Shown one piece after another: positions 3,279 through 52,006 of a DNA stretch of 64,000 bases. The stretch is from positions 1-64,000 of the forward strand of contig LGRX02027232.1 of the NCBI GenBank assembly GCA_001247695.2, in the 5' to 3' direction. How positions within the stretch are numbered: the stretch's first letter is position 1; each line of letters begins with the position of its first letter. The notes under the pieces are model-generated. The model worked only from the letters and a program-made list of their open reading frames with translations. It was not told the origin of the DNA and searched no databases. Source of the DNA: Cymbomonas tetramitiformis. Taxonomy: Eukaryota > Chlorophyta > Pyramimonadophyceae > Pyramimonadales > Pyramimonadaceae. A program made the translations under genes and the position numbers.

Positions 3279-3500
3279 TGCGAGCTCGTATAGAGATTTC
3301 CTATCCGGTAATGTTACGAGCCACACCGGTTAACACACAGGTGCACGGAGGGTTTCCTATGGGGGGCATATTGTTCTCGGGAGGTTTGCCGTGCTCACCA
3401 TGTATATACTCCTGTCGTTTGCATGCAACTACATGTTGTGCGCTTCCCGGTGGCATATCGTTGCTGAGGAAGTCACACGGTGTTCGTGTTGCGTGCTGTC
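3279..3500 (+). repeat. upstream region, copy 1 of a 5' direct repeat
   Basis: This ~220-bp segment, beginning ATGTGCGAGCTCGT, recurs at 6751-6990 with about 85-90% identity by eye. Shared phrases include GGTGCACGGAGGGTTTCCTA and GTTGTGCGCTTCCCGGTGGC. Each copy sits directly upstream of an OTU-domain reading frame, so it may hold a promoter or 5' UTR. Similarity ends at the start of each coding region. Confidence 0.7.
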
Positions 3501-3506
3501 GCACAG

Positions 3507-6500
3507 ATGTTCCCCGACTGCCCGCCCGAGGTTGCCCACGGCGATGACGCTGCATCTAAACAAGTCGAGGAAGAACTACTAGAGGATCATGTCCATAGGA
3601 TCCCGCCTCCCGACACCGTGAAACCAGTCGGGCACAACGAAGCAGGCTTTCTGCCTATTATGCCCAAAAACCTGACACCCGATGTCCTGCGCGACTTGCC
3701 ATCGTGGGCGTATCCGTCTGATCGCCCTCCCCCGGCAGAGCGCACCGTGGAAGACGGGGAGGCATTCACCTTGGATTGGAAGTGGTCCGTGCAGATGCTG
3801 GATGCGGCCTGCTCGGAGGTCGTCCTGAAGGAAATCATTGACATTTGCGACCGGCACCTGGTTGCCAGTGCCAGTTGGAAAGATATGTATTACAGGTGGC
3901 GCAGTGGAGCATCTGAGGTATCCCTGCCTACCCTCCGGGAGCACTACGCGCTGTGGCGCAAGGGCGTGACAGCTGGCGTTACAACGGAGGACACCTTGGG
4001 CGACCCTCGTGACTGGGTGCAAGTCGTGGATGCCTCGATGATGCGCGCGACCCAGGAAAAAACGGAGTGCGAGGATGAGCTCGCGCAGCAACGTAGTGAG
4101 CACACGGACGGGTTTAATGCTATGCTCACCGTGTTCATGACGTATGTGGTGGACTACCACTTGCTGAAGGCTGAGGTCCTGTTCTCTCATAAGGAAATCG
4201 GCGCGGACTTCACATCCGGATCTCATCAACTGGGTGAAGGCGCGCGCTATACCATACAGGCCGACTGGCATGTTGGGCACTGGCTATTCCCATCCATCTT
4301 CACCACCGTGAAGCATGGCCTTGTGGACGACAGGCTGCGGTCTGGGATTTTTGATGCTACGGGAATGGAGGTGAAGCGGACCTACGACAAGCCGTCGCCT
4401 CTAGGGCGGGACCTCGAGAGCTTTATACAGTTCCATCACACCGATACCAAGTTTCCCAAGGAAGGCAAGGGATCCTGGGGCTGGCCGGATTACGACGTGT
4501 TCTCATGTGGCCTGTTGCTGAGGGCCCAATGCCTGACGGAGGTGCTACCCGAACCGCAGCGGGCCTGCCATTGGGACAGGTTTTGCTCGATGGATTACAG
4601 CCTCGTGGTTCAAAACTCCAGGCATGGCGATCCCACTTCGGCTCCCTTCCGTCGTGTTCACCTCGGGGGTCCCATGGGAACACTGTGGTTCTGGCCAGCC
4701 GACCGCATGGCGCACCGCGGTCTTTCTCCAAGTGGGCGCCTCCCGCTCGACCGTACTCGTCCTAAGCAGTTCTACTTCGTGATCTACTCCGCAGCCAGAG
4801 TGCGTACTAAGGCAACCATTGAGCTGAATAACGTGGTACTCGGCAGCCCGCACAGTGTCATCTCGCAATATGGCTTGGCGTGCCGCATGACGTGCGTCGC
4901 GTGTGGAGACGAAATACGATTTGCGAGAGGCTACGACACCTTGCCAGGTGTTTGGGCGTGTTCCCTGTGCAGATCAGGCGTTCTGGGTTGTGACGCTTTG
5001 CGTACTATCGGAGCCGTGATGTGTGGTCCGTGCCAGCGTGTGCGGCGCGAAGCTAAAGCCCGGGCGCCACTATCCGCGCATGAGAAGCACCCGGGGCAGG
5101 CGGCCACATTGGCCGATTACTGCCAGTTAAACGAGGCCGAGGCGAAGCTGCATGCACTCCTGAATGTGGAGGACCTAGGCCTTGCTTGGAACAAACTCCG
5201 CGGGGTGCTCGGCGCTGAGGCGTGGGGACGCGCGGACGACACGGTGAAGCACAGGATCGCCAACCTGACTTGGGGTGACGGTGAACATCCAACTGGTGAA
5301 CGTCCGCCGGCGCGGCCTTTGCAGGACTCTGGCGACGGCATTACTGCTCTCTGGGACCGACGGGCTACCCGTGACGATGCATTCTCATCTTTTGACGATC
5401 ACCAGTTGTACCGGGAACTGGGTGTCTGCTGCCCGGGCTTGCGTAGTGTCGTTTTCGGTATGCTTACCGCGTTGAACGCGCAGCGCCTGCGGACAGCCGG
5501 TATTCCTCTTGGCGCGGACAAGTCCTACAAGAAACAACACCTGTTCCATACGGACGCGGAGGGCGGGCTGCATGTGAACATACGTGTTGCTAAACTCTTG
5601 CAAAGTGCTGATCAGCTGGACCTGGATTTCGCAAAGAAAGTGGCTGCGAAGCTGTCGCACCGATGGGATCCCGGACATGCACGATCCCTCGTCGTGCGAT
5701 GCGATTGTGCATACGAGACTGGTGGAGATGCGTCGCGAGCGATGCCCGGCAAGTGCATCGTGCGGGCAAGTGCATCCCATAAAGACCATGGGGAGTACCG
5801 CGTGCGTGCTCTGGGTGCGTGCCGTAACCAACAGAGAAGCAAGGCAGCAGCCGAGCCTTCCACGGATCTCGCTTCTGAGGAGGCATTGCGAGCGGCAACC
5901 GCAAACGGTTTCCAGCCAAACACTGTTCCGCCAAACTTTGCACCAGGCATGCGTGTTTCGTTCGGTACCGATGACGTCATCCTAATGCCCACGGACCCCC
6001 GGGGGCGTATATTGGAGGCATCCTTCGACCATCCCGACGAGATTTTCCCTGATGTGCTGCCGTTAGCACGTCGCGTGCTCGCTCACGTGCATTGGCCGCT
6101 CGAGGGGAATGCAGACCGTTTTACTTCTCTCGCGGAGTTCGAGCAGGCCTTGGACAACCACGGCCTGCGACGAGTCCAGACAATAGGGGACGGCAACTGC
6201 TGGCTGCACGCCTTGGGTGTACACATTCCGGAAGTGCTTGCAAAGGGTTCCTCCGTGAAGGTCCAAACAATGAACTTCCGTATCGCCATCTGCGCGTCGT
6301 ACGATTGCAATCGGCAGCTTTACCCCCCCGGGATGCTGGACGTTATTCCTGATGAAGGAGCGCCGCCAATGCGCAAAATCCTACTTACTCCCCAAGCATA
6401 CAACGAACCGCAGTTCCTCCATATCATTGCGAACATGCTTCGGCGAGTTATTCAGGTGTACACTCTGTGGCCGATGGTCGACGTGCCAGGGGTGGGGTGC

Positions 6501-6731
6501 AATGTTCCCACCGATACCGATGCTTTGGCACAATACTTGCCGCCTTTCAGCATGAAATATATTTGCCCACATCCGTCACTGGGCTTGGCTAGCCGTGAAC
6601 CGGTACGAGTCGCCCATTACGTTCAATTTGATAAGTTTCCTGGACACTACGAGCGGATCGAGGCAATTCCAGATCCAGGTAGATACCCGTGTACACACCG
6701 TCGTGAGGTGCTGTTTTCGAATTGTCTCTAG
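3507..6731 (+). CDS. OTU-type cysteine protease domain protein, 1074 aa
   Basis: One uninterrupted frame. The ATG at 3507 is preferred because the frame upstream lies in the duplicated leader. OTU proteases are papain-like cysteine proteases, mostly deubiquitinases, and the C-terminal domain shows the hallmark GDGNCWLHALG with Asp895 and Cys898 and a downstream GHYERI with His1047 as candidate catalytic histidine. A Cys-rich zinc-ribbon-like region (CVACGD..., further CxxC pairs) lies near residues 463-515. The N-terminal ~450 residues match nothing I recognise. The gene is far longer than a bare OTU domain (about 130-200 aa). It lies inside the cassette flanked by inverted satellites and is followed by a second OTU-like gene with the same leader. 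OTU domains also occur in transposon-encoded proteins, so it may be cargo or part of an element. No lesion seen. Substrate unknown. Confidence 0.7.
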   Translation: MFPDCPPEVAHGDDAASKQVEEELLEDHVHRIPPPDTVKPVGHNEAGFLPIMPKNLTPDVLRDLPSWAYPSDRPPPAERTVEDGEAFTLDWKWSVQMLDAACSEVVLKEIIDICDRHLVASASWKDMYYRWRSGASEVSLPTLREHYALWRKGVTAGVTTEDTLGDPRDWVQVVDASMMRATQEKTECEDELAQQRSEHTDGFNAMLTVFMTYVVDYHLLKAEVLFSHKEIGADFTSGSHQLGEGARYTIQADWHVGHWLFPSIFTTVKHGLVDDRLRSGIFDATGMEVKRTYDKPSPLGRDLESFIQFHHTDTKFPKEGKGSWGWPDYDVFSCGLLLRAQCLTEVLPEPQRACHWDRFCSMDYSLVVQNSRHGDPTSAPFRRVHLGGPMGTLWFWPADRMAHRGLSPSGRLPLDRTRPKQFYFVIYSAARVRTKATIELNNVVLGSPHSVISQYGLACRMTCVACGDEIRFARGYDTLPGVWACSLCRSGVLGCDALRTIGAVMCGPCQRVRREAKARAPLSAHEKHPGQAATLADYCQLNEAEAKLHALLNVEDLGLAWNKLRGVLGAEAWGRADDTVKHRIANLTWGDGEHPTGERPPARPLQDSGDGITALWDRRATRDDAFSSFDDHQLYRELGVCCPGLRSVVFGMLTALNAQRLRTAGIPLGADKSYKKQHLFHTDAEGGLHVNIRVAKLLQSADQLDLDFAKKVAAKLSHRWDPGHARSLVVRCDCAYETGGDASRAMPGKCIVRASASHKDHGEYRVRALGACRNQQRSKAAAEPSTDLASEEALRAATANGFQPNTVPPNFAPGMRVSFGTDDVILMPTDPRGRILEASFDHPDEIFPDVLPLARRVLAHVHWPLEGNADRFTSLAEFEQALDNHGLRRVQTIGDGNCWLHALGVHIPEVLAKGSSVKVQTMNFRIAICASYDCNRQLYPPGMLDVIPDEGAPPMRKILLTPQAYNEPQFLHIIANMLRRVIQVYTLWPMVDVPGVGCNVPTDTDALAQYLPPFSMKYICPHPSLGLASREPVRVAHYVQFDKFPGHYERIEAIPDPGRYPCTHRREVLFSNCL

Positions 6732-26051: not shown

Positions 26052-28526
26052 AAATCCTCAGTGGTGTGTGACTTCCCGCAGGCTGACTGGCGGCCCTTGC
26101 TACGAGAGTACGGAATGGAGATTGCGGAGACCATACCCCGAGTGAACGAGCAAGGGGAGCCCAATCGGATGTTCATCTCTCCTGGCGAAGAAAGGGGACA
26201 CCGTACAGCTTTACAGGAGTTGCCCATTCCATGGCCCGTCTTGGTAGTGTTGGCCAAGCCACAGCGAAAGCACTTCGACGAGATCACAGCTCCAAGGGTA
26301 AGACCCTCAGCATCACCAGCAGTGACTCTCAAGGGTGCGGCAGCTAAGATCAGGGACCAAGCAGGTGTGGTGGAACCGGGCATGTTTCTGCGTGCCTTAC
26401 GGGCAGAGCACAGGCGCAGTGAGTACCTTTCAGCCCTGAAGCAAGAACTACTGGCCACTCAGCATCACCGCACCGAGCATTTTCGGCTGGTGAGCAACAT
26501 CATCTGGAGAGTAGCGGAAGGACGCTATCAGGTGGTTTTAGCTCCCGACTCCCCTCTGAGAGAGCTGGTCTTGAGGGAGGCTCATGAAGCACCTGCAGCA
26601 GGTCACACAGGGAGGGACAAGACCTTGGACAGAGTCAGACGACGATTCTGGTGGCCGCGAATGGACCTGGACGTAGCTGAATGGGTGAAGACGTGTGTAA
26701 CCTGTCAGCAAACCCAGCCGCGCCAAGGATACCCAGCAGGCCTGTTACAGCCTCACTCTGTGCCTAGTCGATTGTGGGAAGTGGTGAGTATAGACTTTGT
26801 TACTGGGCTTCCCACGACAGAGAGAGGTGTGAATGCCTTCGCCACCTTTACTTGTAAACTGAGTAAGATGGTGCACGGGGTCCCAATGGCGTATAACGAT
26901 AGCTCAGCAGAGGTGGTGACCAGAATGTTCATGGATGCAGTGTGGCGACTGCACGGGGCCCCGATGAAGATTGTGTGTGACCGGGACCCGCGCTTTCGAG
27001 ACGCTCTGACTCAGGAGTTCATGCGACTGATGGGCGTGAAGGTAGCCAGCACCACCCCTTATCACCCGCAGAGTGATGGCCAGGCTGAGCGCAGTAACCA
27101 CACCGTGGAGCGCATGCTGCGTTGTTACGTGGCAGAGAACCAGGAGGATTGGGACCTGTGGGTGGCTCCAGTGGAGTACGCCATCAACGACTCCAAGTCG
27201 GCAGTGACAGGGTTCTCACCGTTCGAACTGGTGTACGGACATGCGCCAGCGACCCAGTTGGACCTCTTCATGGACGCAGCTCTGGAGGGAGGCGCAAAGA
27301 GGAGGAAGGGAGGTCGCACAGCAGCGGACAAGCAGGGTACCGCTCACCAGTTGGCCAAGCAGTTCGCGCAGCAGCTGCAGGCGGCACGAGAAGGTTTGCA
27401 ACTGGCTCAGCAGCGTATGATAGAGCAGTTCGATGCACGGCACCGTCTCCAGCAGTATAAGGTGAATGATCAGGTGTGGGTGGATGGACAGCACTTGGCG
27501 TTGCCCGGTGACAGGGGCTTGAAACCCAAGCTGCGCAAATTGCGGCACGGACCTCTGCGAGTAGTAGAGTGTTTGTACAGCGATCGACAGCAAGAACTGC
27601 CAGTACAGGACCGAGGAGCCCCGTCAGCATACAGACTGGAGTTGCCCGTGCACTGGAAGGTGCATGACACTTTCACTGCAGACAGGCTTAGCCCAGTACA
27701 GTCAGGCGCAGATCACTTTGTCAGCAGACGGGAAGAGATGGCACCGCCGCCAGTAATGGTAGAAGGGCAAAAGGAGCGCGAGGTGGAGCGCATCATCCGC
27801 ACACGCTTCAGAAAGCTAGGCGGGAAAACTGGCGGGTCAGTACAGGAGTGGTTGACCAAGTGGAAGGGATTACCACACAGTCACAGCCAGTGGCGGACCC
27901 AAGAAGACCTGGAGGGCAAGGGAGGCAGGCTGGAACCCCTGAGGGCCTTTGAGGCCGATGAGAAGAAGCAGAGGAGGGCTCCAGAAAAGAGGCGTAGGGA
28001 GACGCACGGTCAGCAGCAGAAGCAGAGGGCTCAGCTCATGGCAATGAGAGCCCCCACTCCGAAGGTTTACAGTAAGGGTGCCAGTCAGGTCTACCAGCCG
28101 CATCTTACGACGGTGCAACATCCTGTGAGGATCCTCGTCCTCTTCTGTGGGACTGGGTCTGTAGAACAACAGTTCCAACGACAGTTCGACGACTGCGAAG
28201 TGGTGACAGTGGATATTCTTCCCAAGTGGCAAGCAACATGCACCGAGGACATTCTCCACTGGAACTACAGGCTGTACCCCCGACACTATTTCGACGTGAT
28301 CTGGGCGAGCCCACCATGTAAGGAGTACAGCAAGGCCAAGACTGTGGGAGTACCAGACCTGGAGCTGGCTGATCGGCGAGTGAAGCGTACCCGGCAGATC
28401 ATCGAGTACTACGATCCAGTATACTACTTCATTGAGAACCCAGCTGGAGATGCTCTGCGAGGGCTGCACACGCGATCTGTGATGAAGGGTTTGCCCGCTC
28501 CTCACCCCGTCTCCTACTGTAGGTGA
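26052..28526 (+). CDS. Ty3/gypsy integrase-chromodomain-C5 DNA methyltransferase fusion (5'-truncated pol)
   Basis: An 821-residue frame, counting from a GTG at 26061 with no ATG upstream. Integrase: HHCC zinc finger with His174, His182, Cys212 and Cys215; catalytic Asp245, Asp307 and Glu343, exact DD35E spacing. A chromodomain follows (about 573-620, VERIIRTRF..EWLTKWKGLP). After a basic Gln-rich linker comes a cytosine-5 methyltransferase: motif I LVLFCGTGS (692-700), acidic VVTVDI (Asp718), motif IV SPPCKEYSK with the Pro-Cys pair (Cys753), and motif VI FIENPAGD (790-797). The frame stops at SYCR, where the family normally continues toward the target-recognition region. AG|GTGACC at the end could be a splice donor, otherwise the enzyme is truncated. 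Reverse transcriptase, RNase H and gag are missing upstream, replaced by the inverted-repeat element. Retroelement-borne C5 methyltransferases have been described in dinoflagellates and Klebsormidium. Confidence 0.85.
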   Translation, partial: KSSVVCDFPQADWRPLLREYGMEIAETIPRVNEQGEPNRMFISPGEERGHRTALQELPIPWPVLVVLAKPQRKHFDEITAPRVRPSASPAVTLKGAAAKIRDQAGVVEPGMFLRALRAEHRRSEYLSALKQELLATQHHRTEHFRLVSNIIWRVAEGRYQVVLAPDSPLRELVLREAHEAPAAGHTGRDKTLDRVRRRFWWPRMDLDVAEWVKTCVTCQQTQPRQGYPAGLLQPHSVPSRLWEVVSIDFVTGLPTTERGVNAFATFTCKLSKMVHGVPMAYNDSSAEVVTRMFMDAVWRLHGAPMKIVCDRDPRFRDALTQEFMRLMGVKVASTTPYHPQSDGQAERSNHTVERMLRCYVAENQEDWDLWVAPVEYAINDSKSAVTGFSPFELVYGHAPATQLDLFMDAALEGGAKRRKGGRTAADKQGTAHQLAKQFAQQLQAAREGLQLAQQRMIEQFDARHRLQQYKVNDQVWVDGQHLALPGDRGLKPKLRKLRHGPLRVVECLYSDRQQELPVQDRGAPSAYRLELPVHWKVHDTFTADRLSPVQSGADHFVSRREEMAPPPVMVEGQKEREVERIIRTRFRKLGGKTGGSVQEWLTKWKGLPHSHSQWRTQEDLEGKGGRLEPLRAFEADEKKQRRAPEKRRRETHGQQQKQRAQLMAMRAPTPKVYSKGASQVYQPHLTTVQHPVRILVLFCGTGSVEQQFQRQFDDCEVVTVDILPKWQATCTEDILHWNYRLYPRHYFDVIWASPPCKEYSKAKTVGVPDLELADRRVKRTRQIIEYYDPVYYFIENPAGDALRGLHTRSVMKGLPAPHPVSYCR

Positions 28527-28573
28527 CCACTTCCGCGACTCAGATGGGATGGATTGACTGTTTTTTGTACTCA

Positions 28574-29372
28574 CCCATATGGTGCACGATTCCTATAGTT
28601 TAGCATTTTTGAGAACCAATTTTCATGTTGAGAATCTGATATTTGATGTCCACATATGTCAGTTGCATGTTACCACAACCCTAATTTGGGTTTAAAGGTC
28701 CCAAAATGGACTCAAATTGCAGTTTTAGCCACATTTTAGCAACTTTCACCTTGATTGCGCCCATATGGGGCGCGATCCCTACGGTCTGGCATTTTTGAGA
28801 ACCAATTTTCATGTTGAGAATCCGATATTCGATGTCCGCATATGTCAGTTGCATGTTACCACAACCCTAATTTGGGTTTAAAGGTCCCAAAATGGACTCA
28901 AATTGCAGTTTTAGCCACATTTTAGCAACTTTCACCTTGATTGCGCCCATATGGGGCGCGATTCCTACGGTCTAGCATTTTTGAGAACTACCTCTAATGC
29001 TGAGAATTCGATATTTGATGTCCGCACATGTCAGTTGCATGGTACAATAACCCGAATTTGGGGTTTAAGGTCCCAAAATGGACTCAAATTGCAGTTTTAG
29101 CCACATTTTAGCAACTTTCACCTTGATAGCGCTCATATGGGGCGCGATTCCTACGGTCTAGCATTTTGAATAACCAATTTTGATGTTGAGAATCCGATAT
29201 TTGATGTCCGCATATGTCTGTTGCATGGTACATTAACCCGAATTTGGGGTTTAAGGTCCCAAAATGGACTCAAATTGCAGTTTTAGCCACATTTTAGCAA
29301 CTTTCACCTTGATAGCGCTCATATGGGGCGCGATTCCTACGGTCTAGCATTTTTGAGAACTACCTTTCATGT
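28574..29372. repeat. 186-bp tandem satellite, 4.3 copies
   Basis: Monomer starts at CCCATATGG..GCGATTCCTA at 28574, 28760, 28946, 29132 and 29318, exactly 186 bp apart. Each contains TTGAGAACCAATTTTCATG and CAAAATGGACTCAAATTGC. It begins 48 bp after the methyltransferase stop. The stretch 29373-30158 shows no gene I can support. Confidence 0.95.
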
Positions 29373-30159
29373 TGGTGGTGACAACTCCGAGATGGAGGAT
29401 GGTGGAGATGAGACGACATGGGTTGTGTGTGCTCTATACGCATGTCGCCCTCGCGGCGGCCTCTTGTTGGCATCGGATGCGGATCGGTGTCATTCCACCG
29501 GAAATTTTGTTCACTGCATGCATTGCCTGTTAATTTTGCATCGGCTGCGTCGACATGAGCATAACCGCGTTGCTCTCCCCGCAGCGGAGGTCCGAGGTGC
29601 TACAAGCGGGCATCACGCAGCTTTCGCCGTTGCAATAAGTGAACGTGCAATGGGCCCTTTATTATGAGTGTGATGAAAACCTCAGAGGATAGGGAATTGA
29701 TGTTCTTTGTGGTTATGACTTATGCATGTTAAGATCTTCCCATATTCACACGATCGCGTAGACGCGTACGTAATCGGAGCAGACAGGATGAAGCGGATGG
29801 CCACTCGTTTATTATTTGTGCAGCGGTGATTATAAAAATATTCATCTCATCAAGCGATCAGAGGAATTCGTCACAATCTATCCATCAATGAAGATATCAA
29901 ACTATGTTGAAATGCTTACTACTCATCATAGCATTATGTATGGCAGGATGCCATGACGTGAGTTATTGGATCGCCCATATCACATCCATGGGTTTATAAC
30001 ATAAAACACATTTTATGTTCTCGCTCCTCGCTAGCATAACAACATAATCGACCTCTGTGTGTTCACATTGAGTGTGTCTATGTCACATACTTGTTGCCAC
30101 TTTTGCTCTACTCTCGATGATATGGTCTACAAGTGCATTATATATACTCGTGCCGCGGA

Positions 30160-33100
30160 TCAAACTTTCCTCTTGTTGCCTCGGCCACGAGCAGCAACTT
30201 GCGGTGTGGCCGCAGATGATGTAGTTTCTCCTGGCCCTTTGCCTCGTCCACGAGCAACAGGTGGCTGTGCATCCGCGGATGATGCAACTCCCCCTCGCCC
30301 CTTGCCTCGGCCACGAGCAGCAACTTGCGGCACCGCCGTTGATGACGATGCAGCTTCGCCTCGGCCCTTGCCTCGTCCACGAGCAACAGGTGGCTGTGCA
30401 GCCGCAGATGATGCAACTCCCCCTCGCCCCTTGCCTCGGCCACGAGCAGCAACTTGCGGCACCGCCGTTGATGACGATGCAGCTTCTCCTCGGCCCTTGC
30501 CTCGTCCACGAGCCACAGGTTGTGGTGCAGCCCCAGATGATGTAGCTCCTCCTCGCCCCATGCCTAGGCCACACACAACAAATGGCAGTGCAGCCACTGA
30601 GTCGATGTCAGCATCCTCTCCACCCTCTTGATTCTGATATCTTGTGGCATCAACACCCACTTGTCCGGTGCGACGCACCCTAGAGTAGATCCGAGACAGA
30701 AATATTTGGACTTTGGAATCTAAGAGTTGCAACTCTTCGCGCCCTACAAAATGGACATCCATTCTCTCCCGGAGGGATGCGGCTGTGATCTTGTTATTGA
30801 GTTCCCACTGAGCAAGCATGAGGACTTCTTGTTCCTCTGAGAATTGGATGCGCGCGGCTCGTGTTAGCATACGCGCCCAGCCTCGCTTTAGCATGGGCGG
30901 CTGAGGGAGAGTGAACGTGAAAGCACATGGAAATGATTGTATAGATGTATGCCGCATTATGTTGAAGATGCCGTGTGTAAGAGATCACAATGCGCAATAT
31001 ATAGTAGGCACCCGCTAAAACAGCAGGCTCTGGAAGACTAATGAAACTCCATAATGAAAATTGTTTTTTCCCAAAAGTGTGCCGTGAGCGTGTGTGTGTG
31101 TGTGTGACCACGCTCATGCATTTGTATCGTGGATGGATAAATATTGTTATGTGTGTATGTGTGGTGCGGCCTGTGTGGTGCGGCCTGTGTGGTTTTAGCA
31201 TGTTTCATATATTACGCATGCTCGGATTTGCTATGCATGCATGTATAGGCTGTGGCATAATTGTCACTGTGAACATCACTGCATCATTATTAGGCAACTT
31301 GCCCCCGGAGAATTTTCTATCCATATTTGTTGGCAATGTGATTCTAGACTTCATCAAAACCCAGCAAAATAATTAAGTAATCAACCTTGTTTTGTTTTTG
31401 TGCAGTGTTGTGTGTGTGTGCGCGCGTGCGCACGCGCGTGTGAACATGCTTGTGCGGCATGTGTATGAATGGATGCATATTGCTGTGTGTGGGTGTGTGG
31501 GTGTGTGTGTGTGCAGGCTTTGTGTGCAGGCTGTGTGGCTTTAGTAACTTGTCTAAATTAGGCATGCTCGGATTTGCTATGTACATTTGTATAGTAGTAG
31601 GTTGCATAAACTAAATTGTGTATGCTTGGATTTGCTATGTATACTATCTTGTATATAAGCTGTATATACAAGTAGTATACATAGCAAATCCAACCACACT
31701 TCTATTGTAGAAAAGTTGCTAAAGCCACACAACATAATACAACCTATACAAGATAGTATACATAGAAAATCCAAGCATGCTTAATTTAGAAAAAAAATGC
31801 TATATCACCCATGCAGCCTATACAAGTATACATAGTAAATCCAGCCCTACATAATTTAGAAAATTTGCTACTAAAGACACAACATATTACAGCATATGCA
31901 AGATAGTATACCTAGTAAATCCAAGTATAAGTATACACATTGTGATATATCACAGCCTATACAAGTATACATACTCAATCCAAGCATACATAATTTAGAA
32001 AAGTTTCTACATCACAGTCTACACAAGTATACAACATAGCAAGTACACGCATACTTAATTTAGAAATTATGCTAAAGCCACACAGCCCGCAACACATAAC
32101 AATATTCATTCATCCATACACACACCGACACGCACACACGCACACACACACAAACACACATATTTAAGTATTTTGCAATCTTCAACTACACGCATACACT
32201 TACACACAATGCGTGGTGGTAAGCCAAGAGTGAATACTAATGTGTACACTTACACACATGAGCACACATGAGCACACATGAGCACACATGAGCACACACA
32301 TGATCACGAGCTTACCTTGAGGTTTGCTTCCGCTGGAATCTCCACCTTGACGACAGTACCAAGTCCGATGCCCCCAAAAATCCAACATCGGAGCATATTT
32401 GATTCTGGCCCACCCTCTCGCTCCTTGACATTGTATTTCGATTGAAGATGATGAATGCTATCAAGCTGTGTATTTTCGGGCAATTTGTGTATGGGAACAT
32501 AGACAGCCTTATTATCAAGGCCTTTCATGGGTAGGAGGTCCAAAGAGTTCGTGACCTCCTTTGCGGTTTGCTGATTGGAGCCTTCGCCCCCGCGTCCACG
32601 CATGCGCTTCAAGTGTTGGCTGAACTGGCCACCTTTCATGGCGTTTCTACTCTTCCCCTCTCCTGGAATGCTGTGAGTGTGCCTCCAGAATGACATGCCG
32701 GTGCTGTCCATTGTATCCTCGACCAATGTACCAAACAATAATGCGGCACCGACATAATCCCCTGCTTTGTCACTAGCTATACTAGCTTTAACTCTCTCGG
32801 GATGCATCTGATGATGCGTTGCTGCCGAGAATTTCACTACTCCTAATGCCGTGACAGCACTTTGATTGCTTTCATCGCTCAGCACATTGTACGTGGAGAT
32901 GTCAAGCATATGCCTTCGTTGCTCTGGAGATAAATCAGGGGCATCAGCCTCCCGGACTTTCTGATATACGCATGCTATATGATGTGAAATTCTGGTCGCA
33001 TCCCCATAGCCCTCCGCCTGTGTCACCTCTGTGGTAAGTCAGCATCAAAGCTAAAAACACATATGTGTGCGTGCATGTAATGAGCGTGGACCTACCTCGG

Positions 33101-33982
33101 ATACGATGTTTGTCGGCGTGCGACACGGAGTGCATTTCGTTGATCGCCTCGCATTGTTTATGAGATATATACTCCCCAACTTCTTTGTAACTAGATAGTG
33201 TTGTCGAAGTGCCATGTGGTGATGTCACCTCCACATTTACATCTGATGCAACTACCATCAACAGTGGTCGTTTGCGCGGTGTGGTAGTCGTCACTTCGAA
33301 AGTAGCACGATCTGAACTTCAAAGCTCCCTTTCATGCAACACCTCTGCAGCCGTGTCGATGGCAGTCGTGGCGATGTTATTGGCGGTATGCGCTTGGGCT
33401 GCAGCATATCCGATCACCAGCACCGCGTCATGTCGCCGCACACAACTGACACAATGCGCACTCTCTGCATGGCGCGCATATGTTTGTGCATAGCTACACG
33501 GACGACGCGCGTATTATTACCATTATTATAGAGCGCATACGTTGCCATTATGTCCACAATTAACATCTGCCGTACTAATATGATAATTCACAATAAGCGT
33601 GTGCATGCGTACCATCATCGGCTGTGCAACTTTCCGATCTTGAACGGCCTCTCCTTGTTAACCACTTCGCGGGGAGTTGATTAGTTGCAGCGTCATCGCC
33701 GTCCGTCTCAACTATCAATTGTCGCTCTACATTGATGATAGAATTACTGTCCGAAGCCGAGAAAGCAGATACGCCATTCTTTCTACGATCCCGCAACGTC
33801 GGCGCATCAGTTTGTATTATTGAAGTCGGAGCTCCGCGTGGATGTCGCCAGTCGTTATCAGAAGGAGGTTGCTGGGGCAACAAGTGCGCGTTGCTGCAAC
33901 CTGCCTGCTTAGAGACGCAGCGCGAACACTTATCGTTGGCCGCAAAGTTTAGGATAGAACACGCCTTTCTATTGCTCGCCAT
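30160..33982 (-). CDS. four-exon gene with a C-terminal Arg-Gly/Lys repeat tail, 679 aa
   Basis: The minus-strand model joins 33982-33613, 33311-33096, 33028-32316 and 30900-30160. All junctions are GT..AG and the phases agree (1, 1 and 0). Donors are GTACGC, GTAGGT and GTAAGC; acceptors are GTTCAG, CCACAG and CCTCAG. Exon 1 starts at an ATG with a Cys cluster (ACSILNFAANDKCSRC). Exon 3 (238 codons) has no known domain. Exon 4 begins with a predicted helical segment, FSEEQEVLMLAQWEL..SKVQIFLSRIYSRVR (about residues 450-510), reminiscent of a DNA-binding module seen at the C-terminus of uncharacterised eukaryotic proteins. It then runs into repeated ARGRGKGRG units. The third intron (1.4 kb) holds microsatellites. 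Joining exon 4 to the rest is the weakest step; it could be a separate gene starting at an ATG at 30957 or 30888. It may be a host gene rather than transposon-derived. Confidence 0.55.
30242..30510 (-). repeat. 129-bp in-frame coding repeat
   Basis: Two tandem copies of a 129-bp unit (43 codons), each encoding ARGRGKGRG twice with alternating linkers EAASSSTAVPQVA and GVASSAAAQPPV. Partial units continue on both sides. Nearly identical copies imply recent expansion. RG/RGK repeats typically bind nucleic acid. Confidence 0.85.
31385..32160. repeat. intronic microsatellite and ~70-bp minisatellite with an inverted head
   Basis: TG/CG dinucleotide tracts at 31412-31520 include the palindrome GCGCGTGCGCACGCGC. 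From 31670 to 32040 the phrase AGTATACATAGCAAATCCA recurs about every 60-80 bp in degenerate form (near 31672, 31753, 31824, 31903, 31966). Two copies in opposite orientation (GGATTTGCTATGTA) lie at 31569 and 31629, so the head can form a hairpin. All of it lies in the proposed third intron of the 679-aa gene. Confidence 0.6.
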
Positions 33983-35729
33983 ATCAGTTGCGAATAGGTT
34001 CGGCTACACGACAGCAACTATGCGGCATAATCGCACATACCGCCATTTGCGTATGCGCCATTGACGCTCGGCTTTGAAACGCTCATGCGCGAAAATTCTC
34101 GAGACACTGTGTCTAAAAACATTGCAGAAGCTTACGAAGTAATGCCGTGCATGGCGCTCGCGAATTCAACCAACCGGCTTAACAGTGGCTTCACAGTGGC
34201 TATCGGCTTCAATGTAAGCTTCTGTAAGCCAAGCACTCAGGAATTTATAAATTCGCGCCAATTCGGCGTTTCAGGCACCGTGTAATTATTGGTTCGAACG
34301 AACCCCCCCCCTTCGCGCCCGACCATCGTCCCAATTCGACGTGTGGGGACCAGTACAACATCCATCCCATCTGAGTCGCGGAAGTGGTCAGGTATGGGAC
34401 ACCCTACATGAAACCTACACATATCTGGACGAACGCCGTGCTACCCGTACCCCTGCTGCAGTGTACCCAAGCAACACCATGTCCCGCGAGAGCTGTGCTG
34501 GGAAAGCACGAGAGTTCATCGCAGGCAGGAGTTTCAGCGTCCAGAACACGAGGCATGGGGTCAGCGCAAGCAGTGTGCGCGATCCCCCGCACCTTGTTGC
34601 ACCATCTGTTCGTGTGGACTGAAGTTGGGGAAGCGCATGAGCGAGGAGAGCGCAGCAGCAGTCATGGACATCATCGCCACTCTGACAGCGCAGACGGACG
34701 AGATCCCGATGCAGGAACAAGATACTGAGGTCTAAAACCCTCAGGGCGCAAAGCAGCGCAAGACCCGCAGAGCGAGAGGAGTACCAGGGCGACAGAACCG
34801 TTTAAGCGTTGGCAGCGTAATTCGGGGACGGAGCCTCGGGAAACCTCCAGCGCGGAAGGGGACTCAGACCCAAGGACTGAGGGGCACGGGACCCAAGAAC
34901 CCGAGGCTTAGAAGCCAGGGGGACTCAGACCCGAGGACTGAGGGGCACGGGACCCGAGAACCCGAGGCTTAGCAGCCAGCATCACTGTGCATGTTTGTTG
35001 ATCCCCAGACAATGTAAATGCAGGCGAACACTAGACGCTAGCGAGGACGTAAGCGCGCGCCTAGGAGGGAAGAGTTGTGCTAGGGTAAGTCACGAGACAG
35101 AATGACGACGTGTCAGAATGGCGAGTGACGGGTACTGTGACAGTCACCAATGACAGGCATTTATATGACCAGATGACGAGAGTGTCTGACAGAAATGACT
35201 GACAGAAATGCCTGACCCGAAAGTGAGTTTTGAAGGTTGAGAGAATTGGTGGGAAACCATTCCAGAAATGGTGGGAACCATTTCATATTCAAACAGCCAC
35301 ACAGAACTGGAGGGAAACCAGGAGAGCCCCAGTTCTTGCCACATCATCAGATCTATGACTATTCAGTAATTCAGAGCAGAGATCATTGTATGACTGGCAG
35401 CTGCAGCCCAAGGGCCAAATGACAAGACCTATCATAGGATATGTGAACATGAAGTGACTGAGCACTGTGACTGTCGAATTCGGATGAGATCTGAGGGAAT
35501 TCGAGTCGACATGTTACTACTTAAAGAGCTGAACAAGCTCTCATGGGAGTTTTTGAATTAGTTACACACTGGCACTGACCTCTGGTGTCTTGTAACTTCA
35601 AACAGTGAAAGTTCACCTAAGTATTAAGAAATATCCGACAATATACAAAGTATTCCGATATCAACCTATGGTCCCAGTACCATATTCCCTGTAAGTGTTA
35701 CTTGCACCCTTGTGAGACTGGTTCAGTCC
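33983..35729. other. region without a supportable gene; LTR-like sequence and a 61-bp duplication
   Basis: Short open frames exist at 34061-34285 and 34384-34728 but lack recognisable content. A 61-bp unit (GACTCAGACCCRAGGACTGA) is duplicated at 34861 and 34922. From 35040 to 35729 the sequence resembles an LTR or leader, ending in GTTACTTGCACCCTTGTGAG beside the truncated gag at 35730. No terminal repeats were found to prove it. Confidence 0.4.
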
Positions 35730-36857
35730 TCACAACCGAACACAATCCTTTGTGACGTGATTGATACGACCACAACGTTGGAAAGGCTTAGGAGGATTTG
35801 ATACTGATCCTTTCCTTTTCCCTTTGCCTTTGCCTTTTCCTCCTTTCCCTTTATTCCTTTGGGAATTCTGATTGGCATTTTGATTTTGATTGCCATTCTG
35901 ATTCTGATTCCAATTCCGATTGGATCTGTCATATGGCTTCTTGCCACGGCCTTTGTCCTTGTCTTTTCTGACTGGGCCTCCTGACTGTTCCTTTTGCCCT
36001 CTATAGTGCAGGGTCTCTGACTGCTTCGAATGAACAACATAATTCAAATCGAGCAGGATCTGTGTGGTTTGTGCCCACGACAGATTATTCCTTTCGTCTT
36101 CTGTAAGGAATCTCAGATGGAACTGTTTGCGAAGATCTGATTCCATATTGCGGATGAATCTGTCCTTTATCAAAGCATCATCCAGATCAACTGATGCCAA
36201 GGCAGCCAGTGATGTGATCGTGCGGAGATAATCTGAAAAGGTCTGGTTTCCTTGATTCAGCGCCATAAGATGCTTTTTGGCTACTGATCTTTTGTGTGGA
36301 TTGCCAAACTGACTGAGGAATGTCCTTCTGATATTCTCATACGTGGCATCTGGCTGTTTGGCCACGACCTGAAAATAATGTCGGTCATTGTTCTGTATGA
36401 GTGTCAGGAAGACTGTAATAATGTCCTTGTCTGGTACTCCTGGATAGGTGAACTGAAAGTATCTATCCACTGTATCCAACCAAATCTCAGCATCCTGTCC
36501 TGCCTTATATTCCTTAGGTGGAGTCATTTCCACCTTTGGAACTAATGCGGATGGAGCTGGTGCTGGCACTGGACCACCATCAGGGTCTGTGAAAACTGTT
36601 GGAGCACGATCCTCTGTATACTCTTCGTCTGGTTCATGTGGTTCTGACTCAGGATCTCTATATCTGCTCATGTCGGGTCTCATACGACTGATGTTGTCGA
36701 AGTACCCTATCTCATCGAATCTGGTCTGGGTATTATCATAACCAGTAAGCCATTTGGGTATCTTAAACCGACTGTAGGCATCGTAAGAGCCTAAGATATC
36801 AAAGAACCAGGTAGATGGATCTGGATTGATAGCTGGAACATCTGGTTCTTCTGCCAT
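35730..36857 (-). CDS. Ty3/gypsy gag, 3'-truncated copy, 375 aa
   Basis: ATG on the minus strand at 36857. Closely related to the gag at 50627-52006: shared blocks TWFFDILGSYDAYSRFKIPK, EIWLDTVDRYFQFTYPGVPD and FLSQFGNPHKRSVAKKHLMA. A capsid-like retrotransposon gag region spans residues 115-270, followed by an Asn/Gln-rich and Lys/Gly-rich nucleocapsid tail. The zinc knuckle (CGRINHVTKDC) has its first Cys replaced by Arg (FQRCGR keeps only part) and the homology stops straight after it at 35735, where unrelated sequence provides the stop. No pol follows. Its upstream leader (36858-38915) is homologous to that of the second copy. Confidence 0.8.
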   Translation of the reverse strand: MAEEPDVPAINPDPSTWFFDILGSYDAYSRFKIPKWLTGYDNTQTRFDEIGYFDNISRMRPDMSRYRDPESEPHEPDEEYTEDRAPTVFTDPDGGPVPAPAPSALVPKVEMTPPKEYKAGQDAEIWLDTVDRYFQFTYPGVPDKDIITVFLTLIQNNDRHYFQVVAKQPDATYENIRRTFLSQFGNPHKRSVAKKHLMALNQGNQTFSDYLRTITSLAALASVDLDDALIKDRFIRNMESDLRKQFHLRFLTEDERNNLSWAQTTQILLDLNYVVHSKQSETLHYRGQKEQSGGPVRKDKDKGRGKKPYDRSNRNWNQNQNGNQNQNANQNSQRNKGKGGKGKGKGKRKGSVSNPPKPFQRCGRINHVTKDCVRL

Positions 36858-46747: not shown

Positions 46748-47476
46748 TTAGCCTTCATGGGCAGCTAGCATGTCTGCTGCATTGGTCAGCTCTGTGGCTT
46801 TGACCCAGGTGTCATGCTCAGGGCCGTAGCCTGCATATCGCACTAAGTAGTACTTGACACCTCTAGTGATCTTATCTGAGAGTATATGTGATATCTCAAA
46901 CAGTGGTTGCCCTTCTTCGGTGATCATCTGTGGCAGAGGCAAAGGTGCTTGGATCGAGTCGTTATACAGCTCTATTCTGGATATAGGCTGTACCGGATGG
47001 ATACGAATATCGAGATCCCCGAAATCTAACTCGTATGCACGCCCATGGCTTAGCACTTTGGATATAGTAAACGGCCCAATATATGGCTGCTTGAAGTGTC
47101 TGCCTGCCTCTGTCAAACCAGTCCATTGGATAAACTCGGTCCGTAAAAGACTTTCTGCCCTACTGCATATTGCCGGGGCATGTGAGTCTTATTGAATCTG
47201 GCTTGGCTAATTTCTGCTGCTCGGGAAATGTTGTCTACCGCATTGGCATGTACAGCCGAGTACTGGTCAAAATGATCTCGAATAGCATTCTGTATTGGAA
47301 CAGGAGCTTCTGGCGGAATAGTGATTGCCAGGTCATGAGGCGAAAGTGGCTGCGCCATCGAGTCGAGATAGAATGGTGAATAACCAGTAGATGCAGAAAC
47401 TGTGTTGTTAATTGCAAACTCCACCAGAGGCAACTTGTCCTCCCACGAATTGGCTGAAGTATCATTGCAACAACAC

Positions 47477-47554
47477 CTGTGGATGAAAAAATACCATCTA
47501 ATCAGTTTATAAACCAGAGGATGGTGAATATCGAATCAACAAATTGAAAAGTAC
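47477..47554 (-). other. 78-bp spliceosomal intron within integrase
   Basis: Minus strand: CTCAG|GTACTTTTC ... TTTTTTCATCCACAG|GTGTTG. Removing it restores DILR-CCCNDTSANSWEDKLP-LVEFAINN, the expected join between the integrase core and the W..L..VEFAIN block. The retained sequence has an in-frame stop shortly after the donor. Confidence 0.7.
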
Positions 47555-50500
47555 CTGAGGATATCCTCAATGAAGGCATGGCTCCTCTGATTGGCTGCAT
47601 TCGACTGTGGATGGTGTGAAGACGTCATAGACAATCTCGTACCAGTAGATTTCCACAGTGTTTGCCAGAATGTAGAGGTGAATCTGGGGTCTCGATCTGA
47701 GATGATGTTCCTCGGAAGACCATGGAGCTTGAAGATATGCTGCATATATATAGAAGCAGTATGCTGAGCAGTCCAGGTCATGCTGAAGGGAATGAGATGA
47801 CAGCGATGAGAGAATTGGCACATTACCACAAATATACTGTCGTGCCCATTAGTGGTGATAGGCAGGTCAGTAATCCAGTCAAGCGATACATCAAGCCATT
47901 TTGTCTTAGGCACACAATATCGTATATGTGACTGACCATAAGGTTTGTGTCTCCTCGTTTTCTGGCGTTGACAAACGGGGCACTCCCGAATGTACTGAAT
48001 GGCTGCCGTCGTCATTCCTGGCCAATAATTTTATCGGCTACGCAGTAGATGAAGCATGCGATTTTTGCCTACATGACCAGAAATAGTGGCTGAGTGGCAC
48101 TCATGAAGGAGAATGTGGCGAAGCTGTGTAATCTCACCGTCATCTGTAGGGACCTTGGCTGTAGGTGGAATGTACAGCTGTCTGCCATATATGGTCTTGC
48201 GAGAGATCAACCCCTGAATGAGCTCGAAGCTGCAGCTGCTGACTGACTGTGATGAAGTCGATGATGTCAGCTTAGCCAATATAGTTTGTGCAAATGTGTC
48301 ACGATCATACTAGGATATAATGATGTCGTGAAGCTGATGAGCTGATGAAGAAGATATAAGAGCAATGAATGTAGGATCTGCAGATGGCATGACTGGAACC
48401 TCGCTGATGTCTATATGTTGCAGACAATCAGTGAGTTCAAAGAGTGTAGAGATACGAGTGAGTGCGTCTGCAACCTTATTCTTTTCGCCAGAAATGTGCT
48501 CTATTCGAAAGTTGTACTCGGAGAGCTCATCCAACCACCTCGCCTGTTTTGGGCTTAGTGTGGATTTAGACTGGAAATAAACCAGTGGCTGATGATCTGA
48601 GCGTACAATAGTCTCAGGAGCTCCCAACAAGATGTGGCGAAAGAATCGGAAGCCCTCCACAATGGCAAATAGCTCGATCTCAGGAATAGGCCAACGTCTC
48701 CGTGTATCGGAGAGAGTGACGCTGTGATAGCCACATGGCTTCATACCTTTTCCTTGATCCTGTAGTATCACTTGACCAACGTGTGTGCCTGATCCATCGA
48801 CCTCCATAATAGATGGCAGTTTCTGATCTGGAAGTTGTAGTACTGGCGCATTGCAGATGGCACTTTTGAGGTCATATCAAATGCCTGCTGCTGCTCAGAT
48901 TCACAGACAAACTCTGCATTATCTTTAAGGAGACGATTGAGCGGCTCGGCAATCTTGGAGAACTTTGGTATGAATCTCCTAAATTGACCGACCATGCCCA
49001 AGAATGACCGAAGGGATGACTTGCCATCTTTAGCCATACGGCGTAGAGGCTGCTTTCCAACGGTAGGACCATAAGACACTGGAGGCTGTATTGCCATGAC
49101 TGCTCGGATTCTGTCTTCGATGATGGATAAGCCTGCTTCAGAGATGTGATGTCCGATAAAGTCTATGGATCTGACGAATAACTCCAGGATTGGAAGGCCT
49201 GGTGAAGAACTGGTGATCTCTGCAACGCTGGAGAAACTGTCGGACATGACTCACGTGGCTGTCAAAGTCCGGACTGTATACCATATATAGTATCATCCAT
49301 GAAAATGACAAGGAACCGATCGATGAAGTCGAAGAATGCCCGATTTCCTACACGTAGAGCTGTTGCAGGAGCATTGTTCAATCCGAAAGGCATAACTGTC
49401 CACTCATAGGAACCATATCTGGTGCGAATAGCTGTTTTGTGAATGTCATCTGGATGTATAGGGATCTGATGGGAAAACTGGTTGAAGTCAAATCTGCTAA
49501 ACCATCGTGCACCTTTTAGCTGTTCAAGAAGGGTGTCGTGAGGTGGCAATGGATACGTGTCCTTAATTGTGATGTTATTAAGGGCTCGATAATCACAGCA
49601 CATCCTCCACTTCCCACCTGGCTTAGGAGCGAAAATGATTGGACATCCATATGGAGATGATGACGGACGAAGGATACCCAATTCGACATATTTGATGATC
49701 TGTCGTTTAAGCTCTTCCATCATGGGCACTGGTATTGTGCTACCTACGAACTGGCTGCGATGGCGGCTTGTGCCCAGGTTCAATGTTGATTCGATGATAA
49801 CCACCTTCAAGCCGTTCTGGCCTATGACCAGCTGGAAGATCCTCCTGGAATATGTCTGAAAAGTCTTCCCTCATTTGATCACGTGCTGCCTTGAACTCTG
49901 GGACTTCCATAGTGGTGTCTGAGTCTGCTGCTGCGAAGACCAGTTCACCGTCGACCTCTGAGAGAAAGACGAGATAAGCTACGGCTTCTTCAGCCGAACC
50001 ACTGGATCGAATACGACGTAGGTGCTTTCTCATGGTGGTGCCACTGACCAATTCCATTTCAGGAAGGCCATCTGAGCCTGGAGTCTGTTCAACTCTGGAT
50101 AAAACTGTGCGAACACTGGAGCCTGATGAGTGCTTCCTAGTGATCGTCAGATTTTTGGACTGGAAGTCAATGTGTGGATTTCTCCTTTCCAACCAATCTT
50201 GACCCAGGATGACAGTGAAGGGTTTCATGTCAATGATGTAGAAATCCTCTGTGTCCTTATACTTACCCAGCGTGAATGTAGCATTGGGAAGATAGGATGT
50301 GCAAGGTAGTTGGCTTCCTCCAGCCAATCCCACTGAGAATGATGAAGAATCTGTGGGTGTTATACCAAGCTGAGCAGCGAACTGTCTGTCGATGAAAGAC
50401 GATGTAGCTCCTGGATCTACCAATATGTGAGTACTCTGTCCATATACTTTCCCTTTGTACAACAACAGCTTCTTCTGTGATTTCAGCTGTGCTGTCTGAG

Positions 50501-50626
50501 ACTGCATCTGTGCGATGTGCTCTGAGGGAGTGTCCATCTGCTGAAACTGTAATGTCAGACTGGAAAGGACTTCTTCTGAGATACTCTCAACCCGGCCACT
50601 TGCTTCAGTGGCATCTTCAGGCTGAT

Positions 50627-52006
50627 TTACCTCGAGGGTGCTCTCAACACTGGTACCTGTGCAGTACCCTGAGAGTTTCCCTGAGGAGCTGGAGCTGAAG
50701 CTGGAGCTGGAGTTGCAACTGCTGCATTGATGCTGTGCTGACTCTTTAACTCCTTAACCAGGGTGTTGATTGTATTGATGAGTTTGCCGGACTCATTTTT
50801 AGCACCCTGATTCTGTTGCTGCTGTCTCCTGAAAGGATTCTGAGCTGGTGGCTTGCCTTGTATGGTTTTTCCATCTGGGGTCTTGGTGGAATAACAATCC
50901 TTTGTGGCGTGTTTGGTACGACCACAACGTTGGCAAGGCTGTGAAGGATTTTGTGCTTTCCCTTTCCCTTTACCTTTGCCTTTTCCACCTTTCCCTTTGC
51001 TCCGATTCTGATTGGCATTTGAGTTCTGATTGCCATTCTGGCTCTGATTCCAGTTCCTGTTGGATTTATCATATGGCTTTCTGCCACGCCCCTTGTCCTT
51101 GTCCTTTTTGACTGGGCCTCCTGATGACTGCTCCTTCTGCCCCCGATAGTGAAGGGTCTCTGACTGCTTCGAATGAACAACACAATTCAAGTCGAGCAGT
51201 ATCTGTGTGGTTTGTGGCCACGACAGATTATTCCTTTCATTCTCTGTTAGGAATCTTAGGTGGAACTGTCTGCGGAGATCAGGGTCCATGTTGCTGACAA
51301 ATCTGTCCTTTATTAACACATCGTCCAGATCAACTGCTGCTAAAGCAGCCAGCGACGTGAACGTGCGCAAATAGTCTGAGAAAGTCTGGCTCCCTTGAGT
51401 CAGTGCCATTAGGTGTTTCTTGGCCACTGATCTTTTATGGGGGTTGCCAAAATGACTGAGGAAAATCCTTCTGACCCTCTCATATGTGGCATCTGGTTGC
51501 TGTGCCACGACCTGGAAATAGTGTCGGTCATTGTTTTGGATAAGCGTTAGGAATACTGTGATCAGGTCCTTGTCTGGAACTCCTGGATAAGTGAACTGGA
51601 AATATCTGTCCACTGTGTCCAACCATACCTCTGCATCCTGTCCTGCTTTAAATTCCTTAGGTGGTGTCATTTTTACCTTTGGAACCAAAGTGGGTGGAGC
51701 TGGTGCTGGAACAGAATCATCATCAGGATCTGTAAAAACTATTGGAGCATTATCTTCTGTTTTCTCATCTTCTAGTTCCTTTGGTTCATTCTGAGGATCC
51801 TTATATCTGCTCATGTCGGGCCTCATGCGACTGATATTGTCGAAGTACCCTATCTGGTCGAATCTGGTCTGAGTATTGTCATAACTAGCGATCCACTTGG
51901 GAATCTTGAACCGACTGTATGCATCATAGGAGCCTAAGATGTCAAAGAACCATGTTGTTGGATCTGCATTGATGGCTGGGATTTCTGGTTCTTCCTCTTC
52001 TGCCAT
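50627..52006 (-). CDS. Ty3/gypsy chromovirus gag, 459 aa
   Basis: Intact frame from ATG at 52006. Capsid-like gag region about residues 115-275 (VWLDTVDRYFQFTYPGVPDK, RSVAKKHLMALTQGSQTFSD), then an Asn/Gln tract and a Lys/Gly tract typical of nucleocapsid, then the zinc knuckle CQRCGRTKHATKDC. Past the knuckle a Gln/Ala/Pro-rich tail leads to the stop. The pol frame overlaps in -1. This is the longer, better preserved homologue of the gag at 35730-36857. Gag forms the particle in which reverse transcription takes place. Unlike pol, this frame has no lesion. Confidence 0.85.
   Translation of the reverse strand: MAEEEEPEIPAINADPTTWFFDILGSYDAYSRFKIPKWIASYDNTQTRFDQIGYFDNISRMRPDMSRYKDPQNEPKELEDEKTEDNAPIVFTDPDDDSVPAPAPPTLVPKVKMTPPKEFKAGQDAEVWLDTVDRYFQFTYPGVPDKDLITVFLTLIQNNDRHYFQVVAQQPDATYERVRRIFLSHFGNPHKRSVAKKHLMALTQGSQTFSDYLRTFTSLAALAAVDLDDVLIKDRFVSNMDPDLRRQFHLRFLTENERNNLSWPQTTQILLDLNCVVHSKQSETLHYRGQKEQSSGGPVKKDKDKGRGRKPYDKSNRNWNQSQNGNQNSNANQNRSKGKGGKGKGKGKGKAQNPSQPCQRCGRTKHATKDCYSTKTPDGKTIQGKPPAQNPFRRQQQQNQGAKNESGKLINTINTLVKELKSQHSINAAVATPAPASAPAPQGNSQGTAQVPVLRAPSR
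50640..50681 (-). promoter_or_regulatory. candidate -1 ribosomal frameshift signal at the gag/pol junction
   Basis: The heptamer G GGA AAC (50681-50675 on the minus strand) lies exactly in gag codon phase (GGA is codon 443) and fits X XXY YYZ. A -1 slip there enters a frame that is open without a stop into protease. Gag terminates 48 nt downstream (TAA at 50629-50627). Six bases after the heptamer a hairpin GGTAC-TGCACAG-GTACC can form, enclosed by TCTCA/TGAGA. Confidence 0.55.

Follow-up and report, generated by a model that had tools for sequence, protein, structure and literature searches.

The stretch of Cymbomonas tetramitiformis DNA analyzed here (the window; positions 1 to 64,000 of contig LGRX02027232.1, an 82-kb contig within an 852-Mb assembly) contains a broken copy of a Ty3/gypsy retrotransposon that encodes two kinds of methyltransferase domain in one polyprotein. 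The anatomy of the element is nearly certain: protease (PR), reverse transcriptase (RT), RNase H, Dam-like adenine methyltransferase, integrase (INT), chromodomain and cytosine-5 (C5) methyltransferase. The best overall explanation, to which we assign a probability of roughly 0.55, is a Pol polyprotein with two virus-type methyltransferases that would act on the element's own complementary DNA (cDNA). An initial annotation of the window, made from its letters alone, had reported integrase, chromodomain and C5 methyltransferase as a fusion. As one polyprotein this fusion is borne out in many copies, but the Dam-like domain upstream of the integrase was missed, only its C-terminal part being left in the window.

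The architecture is clearest in copies elsewhere in the genome. The best 150 of 7,103 candidate loci were scored, and in none of these 150 was a stop found within the 139-aa methyltransferase stretch. Twenty regions (L031–L050) were fetched, picked for long open frames and thus biased toward function. In nine of them (L031–L038 and L040), on nine contigs, a single frame of 2,296–2,577 aa runs from the protease through the C5 domain in the order given above, with the motif WCNPPF in the Dam-like domain. The PR-RT-RNase H-INT order of Ty3/gypsy Pol was confirmed in other copies by Pfam and tblastn. For example, Pfam matches on the L035 polyprotein comprise aspartic protease, RT, RNase H, Dam (PF05869), the H2C2 domain and the chromodomain, with the integrase core (rve) below cut-off; no tyrosine recombinase, the hallmark of DIRS elements, was found among them. 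WCNPPF and a C5 domain are present in all 20 long copies, all five checked C5 motifs in 18, and the integrase triad DDE in 19, the exception being L035, where the first catalytic Asp is gone (YDE). A frame of ~600 aa that overlaps the L035 polyprotein on its upstream side has a CxxCx4Hx4C knuckle and probably encodes Gag. Long terminal repeats (LTRs) and a target duplication were established in the one copy that was followed to both ends, L044. Its LTRs (TG...CA, ~605 bp) differ at 1 of 606 aligned sites and have AAACG on both sides, and, near-identical and so flanked, they mark L044 as a recent insertion. By its sequence, the element is a Ty3/gypsy LTR retrotransposon with a C-terminal chromodomain, chromovirus-like in type. 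L044 and L049 have a differing 5' part with no protease match, and perhaps form a separate or non-autonomous subfamily. In the genome, the motif-IV region of the C5 domain has 363 sites within 3 mismatches and none for the reversed pattern, so these sites are not due to chance; the Dam motif has 323, again with none for the reversed pattern. The distance between C5 and Dam sites, paired by eye, is 2.34–2.36 kb in C30, C85, C211, C913 and C1809 and 3.4 kb in C2742.

The identification of the C5 domain draws on phage families, conserved motifs and structure. The initial annotation had called the fragment in the window a cytosine-5 DNA methyltransferase. On the Pfam family PF00145 the fragment stays under the cut-off (12 bits versus 22, E 0.14), as does the full domain of L035 (17.7 bits), and the NCBIfam dcm match is also below cut-off (0.063). 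Taken alone, the score of the fragment would count as the refuting outcome named in the initial annotation. What upholds the call is a match of the fragment to the phage DNA methyltransferase family phrog_363 (4.6e-11), together with a 66%-identical relative, P0023, that passes PF00145 at 24.9 bits. P0023 is one of six proteins among ten scanned that do so, the others being P0026, P0035 and the stand-alone metagenome relatives P0044, P0050 and P0059; three of seven related polyproteins (P0080, P0081 and P0082) also pass. The L035 domain matches the phage methyltransferase families phrog_757 (5.8e-15) and phrog_363 (3.1e-12). W78, S80, P81, C83, E122 and N123, which include the catalytic S-P-x-C and E-N, are invariant in a 29-row alignment. 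Single-sequence searches of the PDB gave no match for the C5 domain and none for the Dam-like domain. The AlphaFold model of P0019, 94% identical to the L035 domain, has a pLDDT (predicted local distance difference test) of 85, and among its top 50 PDB matches are C5 methyltransferases at E about 1e-7 and 12–20% identity, with Dnmt3 structures at 12–17%. Its best viral structure match is the putative cytosine methyltransferase A0A2P0VN45 of Tetraselmis virus 1 (37% identity, E 8.7e-22), with a TM (template modeling) score of 0.84 by target length. The C5 domain is probably catalytically active. Seven full-length PF00145 matches of almost equal score (102.7–111.3 bits, frames of 383–401 aa) on contigs C25294, C20845, C8, C6, C2041, C154 and C16883 represent a multicopy stand-alone C5 methyltransferase that may be mobile, and ~95 listed places with partial matches (43–48 bits), many in frames of 500–2,398 aa, are presumably further subfamilies of C5-bearing elements.

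For the Dam-like domain, the PF05869 cut-off is passed by all seven related polyproteins scanned, three of which (P0080, P0081 and P0082) have PF05869 and PF00145 together. The L035 domain matches phrog_111 (5.2e-10) and, below cut-off, TIGR01712 (8.4e-4, 18.9 versus 97). A more typical relative, the domain of P0074, matched 71 phage records, the best being a Gordonia phage gene named 'methyltransferase' (5e-7); phage genes named DNA adenine methyltransferase follow at 5e-4 to 6e-4. A protein search with the Dam-like domain found 22 proteins, partly from Cymbomonas. A Dam-type motif IV and SPPC occur in the same chain in 12 of 38 proteins compared (11 with NPPY/F), two of the 12 chains being our translations of L035 and L032. 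Catalytic activity of the Dam-like domain is somewhat favored, less firmly than that of the C5 domain. A related polyprotein in an ENA record, P0085 (2027 aa), matches both the Dam-like and the C5 domain and has no chromodomain match; a PHD finger (PF00628), precomputed for this record, is a possible histone reader.

In a 48-row tree, the 24 retroelement-type C5 domains form one clade (96/88) that adjoins phage, viral-contig and metagenome enzymes. Eight of these 24 rows have no integrase or chromodomain in the same record, and a second tree with the other 16, one of which (P0039) was labeled by eye from a chromodomain-like stretch, recovers the clade at 96/81. Eight of 17 viral-contig loci entered the C5 trees; P0052 and P0057 were left out, and P0063 and P0059 were dropped from the 16-row tree. 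Tetraselmis virus 1, bacterial, Dnmt3 and host Cymbomonas DNA methyltransferase (DNMT) sequences stood outside the trees, including the ordinary-DNMT-like PF00145 genes of the Cymbomonas genome such as C23365 (228 bits). The groups P0009/P0076/P0077/P0079/P0080 and P0017/P0018 are common to the integrase and C5 trees, with the remainder unresolved or on long branches. Taken together, the trees suggest a single capture of a virus-type C5 gene early in the element lineage, and the relatives of both enzymes point to phage/giant-virus-type genes as their source. The nearest C5 relatives are small phage and metagenome enzymes and the Tetraselmis virus 1 methyltransferase, with no recognizable Dnmt3 among them. 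A host Dnmt3 origin therefore lacks support from the nearest relatives, Dnmt3 rows being absent from the trees themselves. The capture proposed initially holds, but the nearest relatives identified are of viral or phage type and not Dnmt3 as in the published Klebsormidium gypsy element. The donor may instead have been prokaryotic; C5 matches were found in 11 phage records (best 4e-9) and 16 plasmid records (best 3e-11, Aureispira, 31%).

In the copies compared, dN/dS (the ratio of non-synonymous to synonymous rates) is low for both domains. It was computed from 15 of the 20 fetched copies, leaving out L039, L041, L043, L047 and L048, and choosing copies with long frames biases it toward function. 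Between subfamilies A (9 copies) and B (4 copies) it is 0.084 for C5, 0.026 for RT and 0.011 for the chromodomain; between A and M (L044/L049) it is 0.057 for C5 and 0.016 for Dam, with RT at 0.026–0.027 over both comparisons. Synonymous divergence (dS) between A and B is saturated for PR, RNase H, Dam and INT, and in Dam a mean of 90 synonymous versus 46 non-synonymous differences was counted. Because the integrase dS is saturated whereas that of the chromodomain and C5 is only 0.26–0.28, subfamilies A and B have exchanged 3' parts. The window copy is itself mosaic, with an A-like integrase and an LTR nearest to B; L007 and L014 are similar in both parts.

As for function, both enzymes would be packaged alongside RT and integrase, and the element's own double-stranded cDNA would be methylated on adenine and cytosine before or at integration. 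Such marks could disguise the cDNA or protect it against nucleases and foreign-DNA recognition, or could fix in advance what chromatin state a new copy adopts. Action on the cDNA is favored because both enzymes sit in Pol, the cDNA-handling polyprotein, an argument also made for SymbioDIRS-Dnmt3 (PMC5890265). We consider this the most likely role of the two methyltransferases, at about even odds. The more specific proposal, that one LTR-retrotransposon polyprotein is a dual writer of 6-methyladenine (6mA) and 5-methylcytosine (5mC) which uses two virus/phage-type enzymes to modify its own cDNA as phages and giant viruses do their genomes, is tentative and falls a little short of that.

Several observations weigh against such a role. 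The PF05869 match on L035 is partial, covering positions 22–77 of 169, and scores 24.7 bits versus a cut-off of 28.1; the adenine motif is CSPP in the relative P0009, and no Dam match was found in P0013. The C5 C-terminus is missing in two of the 20 long copies, being out of frame in L039 and deleted in L048. The best solved matches of the C5 sequence profile are DNMT2-type tRNA methyltransferases (1.5e-5 and 2.8e-5), with DNMT1 next. Base composition points the same way: a second Ty3/gypsy element in the window at 47.2–52.0 kb, with no methyltransferase match, has a CpG observed/expected ratio of 0.60 (0.35 in gag). Finally, CpG shows no excess of private transitions (13 of 200 CpG sites versus 48 of 857 other C/G sites, in a 38-copy alignment from which four doubly fetched loci had been removed).

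One alternative is a loss of DNA methylation by one domain or by both, which would then serve to bind nucleic acids or would methylate RNA. We regard this as unlikely, although the sub-threshold PF05869 match and the CSPP motif fit it, as does the report that a tested SymbioLINE DNMT gave no DNA methylation in yeast (PMC5890265). An RNA substrate is possible because the best solved C5 profile matches are DNMT2 and tRNA (cytosine38-C5) methyltransferase. Against a loss of activity stand the retention of WCNPPF in every long copy and of the five C5 motifs in 18, the invariant S-P-x-C and E-N, and the low dN/dS.

It is similarly improbable that, once integration has occurred, the methyltransferases, brought by the integrase and chromodomain, mark the host target site or rival elements, thereby adjusting how strongly the neighborhood is silenced. 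Effects of retroelements on the host methylome and on insertion-site chromatin are discussed in PMC5890265. In the polyprotein, the C5 domain comes immediately after integrase and chromodomain, and the LTR-element DNA of the window is CpG-depleted, as would be compatible with methylated elements. On the other hand, the depletion is not confined to the methyltransferase-bearing element, and the chromodomain lacks most of the methyl-lysine cage, keeping what we take to be one of the three aromatic-cage residues of HP1. Chromodomain-guided targeting of methylated chromatin, as suggested in the initial annotation, is doubtful on this assumed comparison with HP1.

The CpG ratio is 0.64–0.74 in coding stretches of the methyltransferase-bearing element and 0.94 on average over the window. 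As proof of self-methylation this signature was rejected, since the second gypsy element is equally depleted. That element (window 47191–52006, minus strand) has gag (PF03732) and an RT and integrase 29–41% identical to those of the main element in places; at E 1e-5 the methyltransferase parts of P0017/P0018 find no counterpart in it. CpG composition is in any case a weak test of methylation, because prasinophytes pair high 5mCG with CpG enrichment (PMC12695648).

The copy in the window comprises the following features, with the DNA transposon that interrupts it.

26061–28526, plus strand: open frame of 821 aa from the open reading frame (ORF) listing; homology to the element starts at 26069.
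26070–26258, plus strand: C-terminal remnant of the Dam-like adenine methyltransferase (tblastn with polyprotein P0017, from its residue 1633; end coordinate computed from residue numbers).
26547–26723, plus strand: integrase zinc-binding domain H2C2 (PF17921, Integrase_H2C2, 4.4e-23, above cut-off).
26778–27089, plus strand: integrase catalytic core (PF00665, rve, 34.1 bits versus cut-off 32.6, 3.4e-8).
27780–27920, plus strand: chromodomain, downstream of the integrase (PF00385, Chromo, 3.4e-8, above cut-off).
28107–28523, plus strand: first part of the C5 methyltransferase domain (phage-family matches, motifs, alignment and the model of the relative P0019).
28524–34390: DNA transposon of ~5.9 kb inserted in the C5 methyltransferase gene, with 31-bp perfect inverted terminal repeats.
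34391–34735, plus strand: remainder of the C5 methyltransferase gene, from YGTPYMKPTHIWTN on; the frame shifts near 34613–34632 (tblastn).
34858–34979, plus strand: two 61-bp tandem repeats between the end of the gene and the LTR, present in many other copies too.
35076–35742, plus strand: 3' LTR (TGTGCTAGGG...CCGAACA), the 3' end of the element common to many copies (LTR pair and AAACG duplication in L044).

The frame reported initially, with integrase, chromodomain and C5 methyltransferase together at 26061–28526, was confirmed, all three integrase and chromodomain Pfam matches lying above cut-off and FCGTGS (motif I, 28143), SPPC (motif IV, 28308) and FIENP (motif VI ENP, 28434) following in frame. 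The integrase triad is equally sound: residues 245, 307 and 343 counted from the start of the frame (codons D 26793, D 26979 and E 27087) are D248, D310 and E346 of P0001, 35 residues separating the last two. Among database proteins, Cymbomonas tetramitiformis models come closest, with CYMTET_50247 97% identical over the searched region. Upstream, the copy is cut off at 26069 within the Dam-like domain, and this 5' truncation has removed the catalytic half, where other copies have WCNPPF; blastn found neither another LTR nor a 5' part of the element elsewhere in the window. The window copy is a dead, 5'-truncated and transposon-interrupted Ty3/gypsy LTR retrotransposon.

The frame stops at SYCR (28526) because the DNA transposon landed in the methyltransferase gene. 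Its 31-bp inverted repeats (28524–28554 with 34360–34390) are perfect, and the target duplication is AGGT at 28521–28524/34390–34393 or, ambiguously, GG when one more base is counted in the repeat. All 29 other loci that were aligned with the window are homologous up to 28524 and again from 34390. The site is uninterrupted in 19 of the 20 long copies, L048 being deleted there, and the terminal repeat has 468 genomic sites, many of them listed in pairs that face each other across a few kb. The suggestion that 28526 is a possible splice donor from which the enzyme continues in another exon, or else is truncated, draws on the frame ending directly after a GT-containing stretch. It is now very improbable, as the junction is the transposon end with its perfect terminal repeat and the gene resumes 5.9 kb on, at 34391; the exon reading was rejected on this basis. 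Still less credible is an assembly or annotation artefact joining the integrase to a neighboring methyltransferase gene, for which the patchwork look of some Cymbomonas gene models (P0006, P0016) might speak, given the 363 and 323 motif sites, the single frames on nine contigs and similar fusions in records from other sources (P0080 from jgi, P0009 and P0085 from ena).

Within the DNA transposon, a repeat occurs in four copies at 186-bp spacing (window 28574–29431), and the minus-strand ORFs 30160–30957 and 32304–33026 have no Pfam match at 0.01. The same was found for nine of ten window ORFs, these two included. A 1,083-aa ORF at 3480–6731 likewise has no Pfam match; its C-terminal part contains GDGNCWLHALG, which we take to resemble the OTU protease signature.

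DNMTs have been described in Symbiodinium long interspersed nuclear element (LINE) and DIRS elements and in Klebsormidium gypsy elements (de Mendoza et al. 2018, PMC5890265), where Dam-like enzymes in DIRS elements are also cited and a virus is suggested as a possible source of Symbiodinium DNMTs. The closest parallel is KnitGypsy-Dnmt3 of Klebsormidium nitens, likewise a green-lineage alga, where a gypsy Pol polyprotein also contains a C5 methyltransferase subject to purifying selection; that enzyme, however, is described as Dnmt3-class and the repeats of the element as DIRS-like in arrangement (PMC5890265), whereas the Cymbomonas element has a phage/giant-virus-like C5 domain, ordinary LTRs with a 5-bp duplication (in one copy) and a second, Dam-like methyltransferase. 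SymbioDIRS-Dnmt3 and SymbioLINE-Dnmt are likewise high-copy retroelements encoding a C5 methyltransferase, in Pol in the DIRS case, but are tyrosine-recombinase or LINE elements of Dnmt3 or orphan class, with no Dam domain mentioned in their descriptions (PMC5890265); the orphan class is set apart from the Cymbomonas C5 domain by description and not by sequence. DIRS elements with a Dam-like enzyme share its location inside a retroelement (PMC5890265), but use a tyrosine recombinase where the Cymbomonas element has a DDE integrase, chromodomain, LTRs and a C5 enzyme as well. The Tetraselmis virus 1 methyltransferase differs in being a stand-alone 218-aa viral protein. In Cymbomonas itself, scaffolds with >10,000x coverage were reported to have homology to chromodomain, RNase H and cytosine DNA methyltransferase (Burns et al. 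2015, PMC5741210), and these probably belong to the same element family; the one sentence on them describes no element, fusion or adenine methyltransferase. A search of openly licensed PMC papers listed none on a retroelement with both methyltransferases.

The retroelement DNMTs published so far were portrayed for the most part as Dnmt3 genes stolen from hosts, and Dam-like enzymes had been known in DIRS elements. In the Cymbomonas element a single gypsy polyprotein combines the two kinds of methyltransferase, the one for cytosine being viral in appearance. If the proposed role is true, a strategy of self-modification would have moved from virus genomes into retroelements, and amplification in a phagotrophic green alga would have raised it to hundreds of copies.

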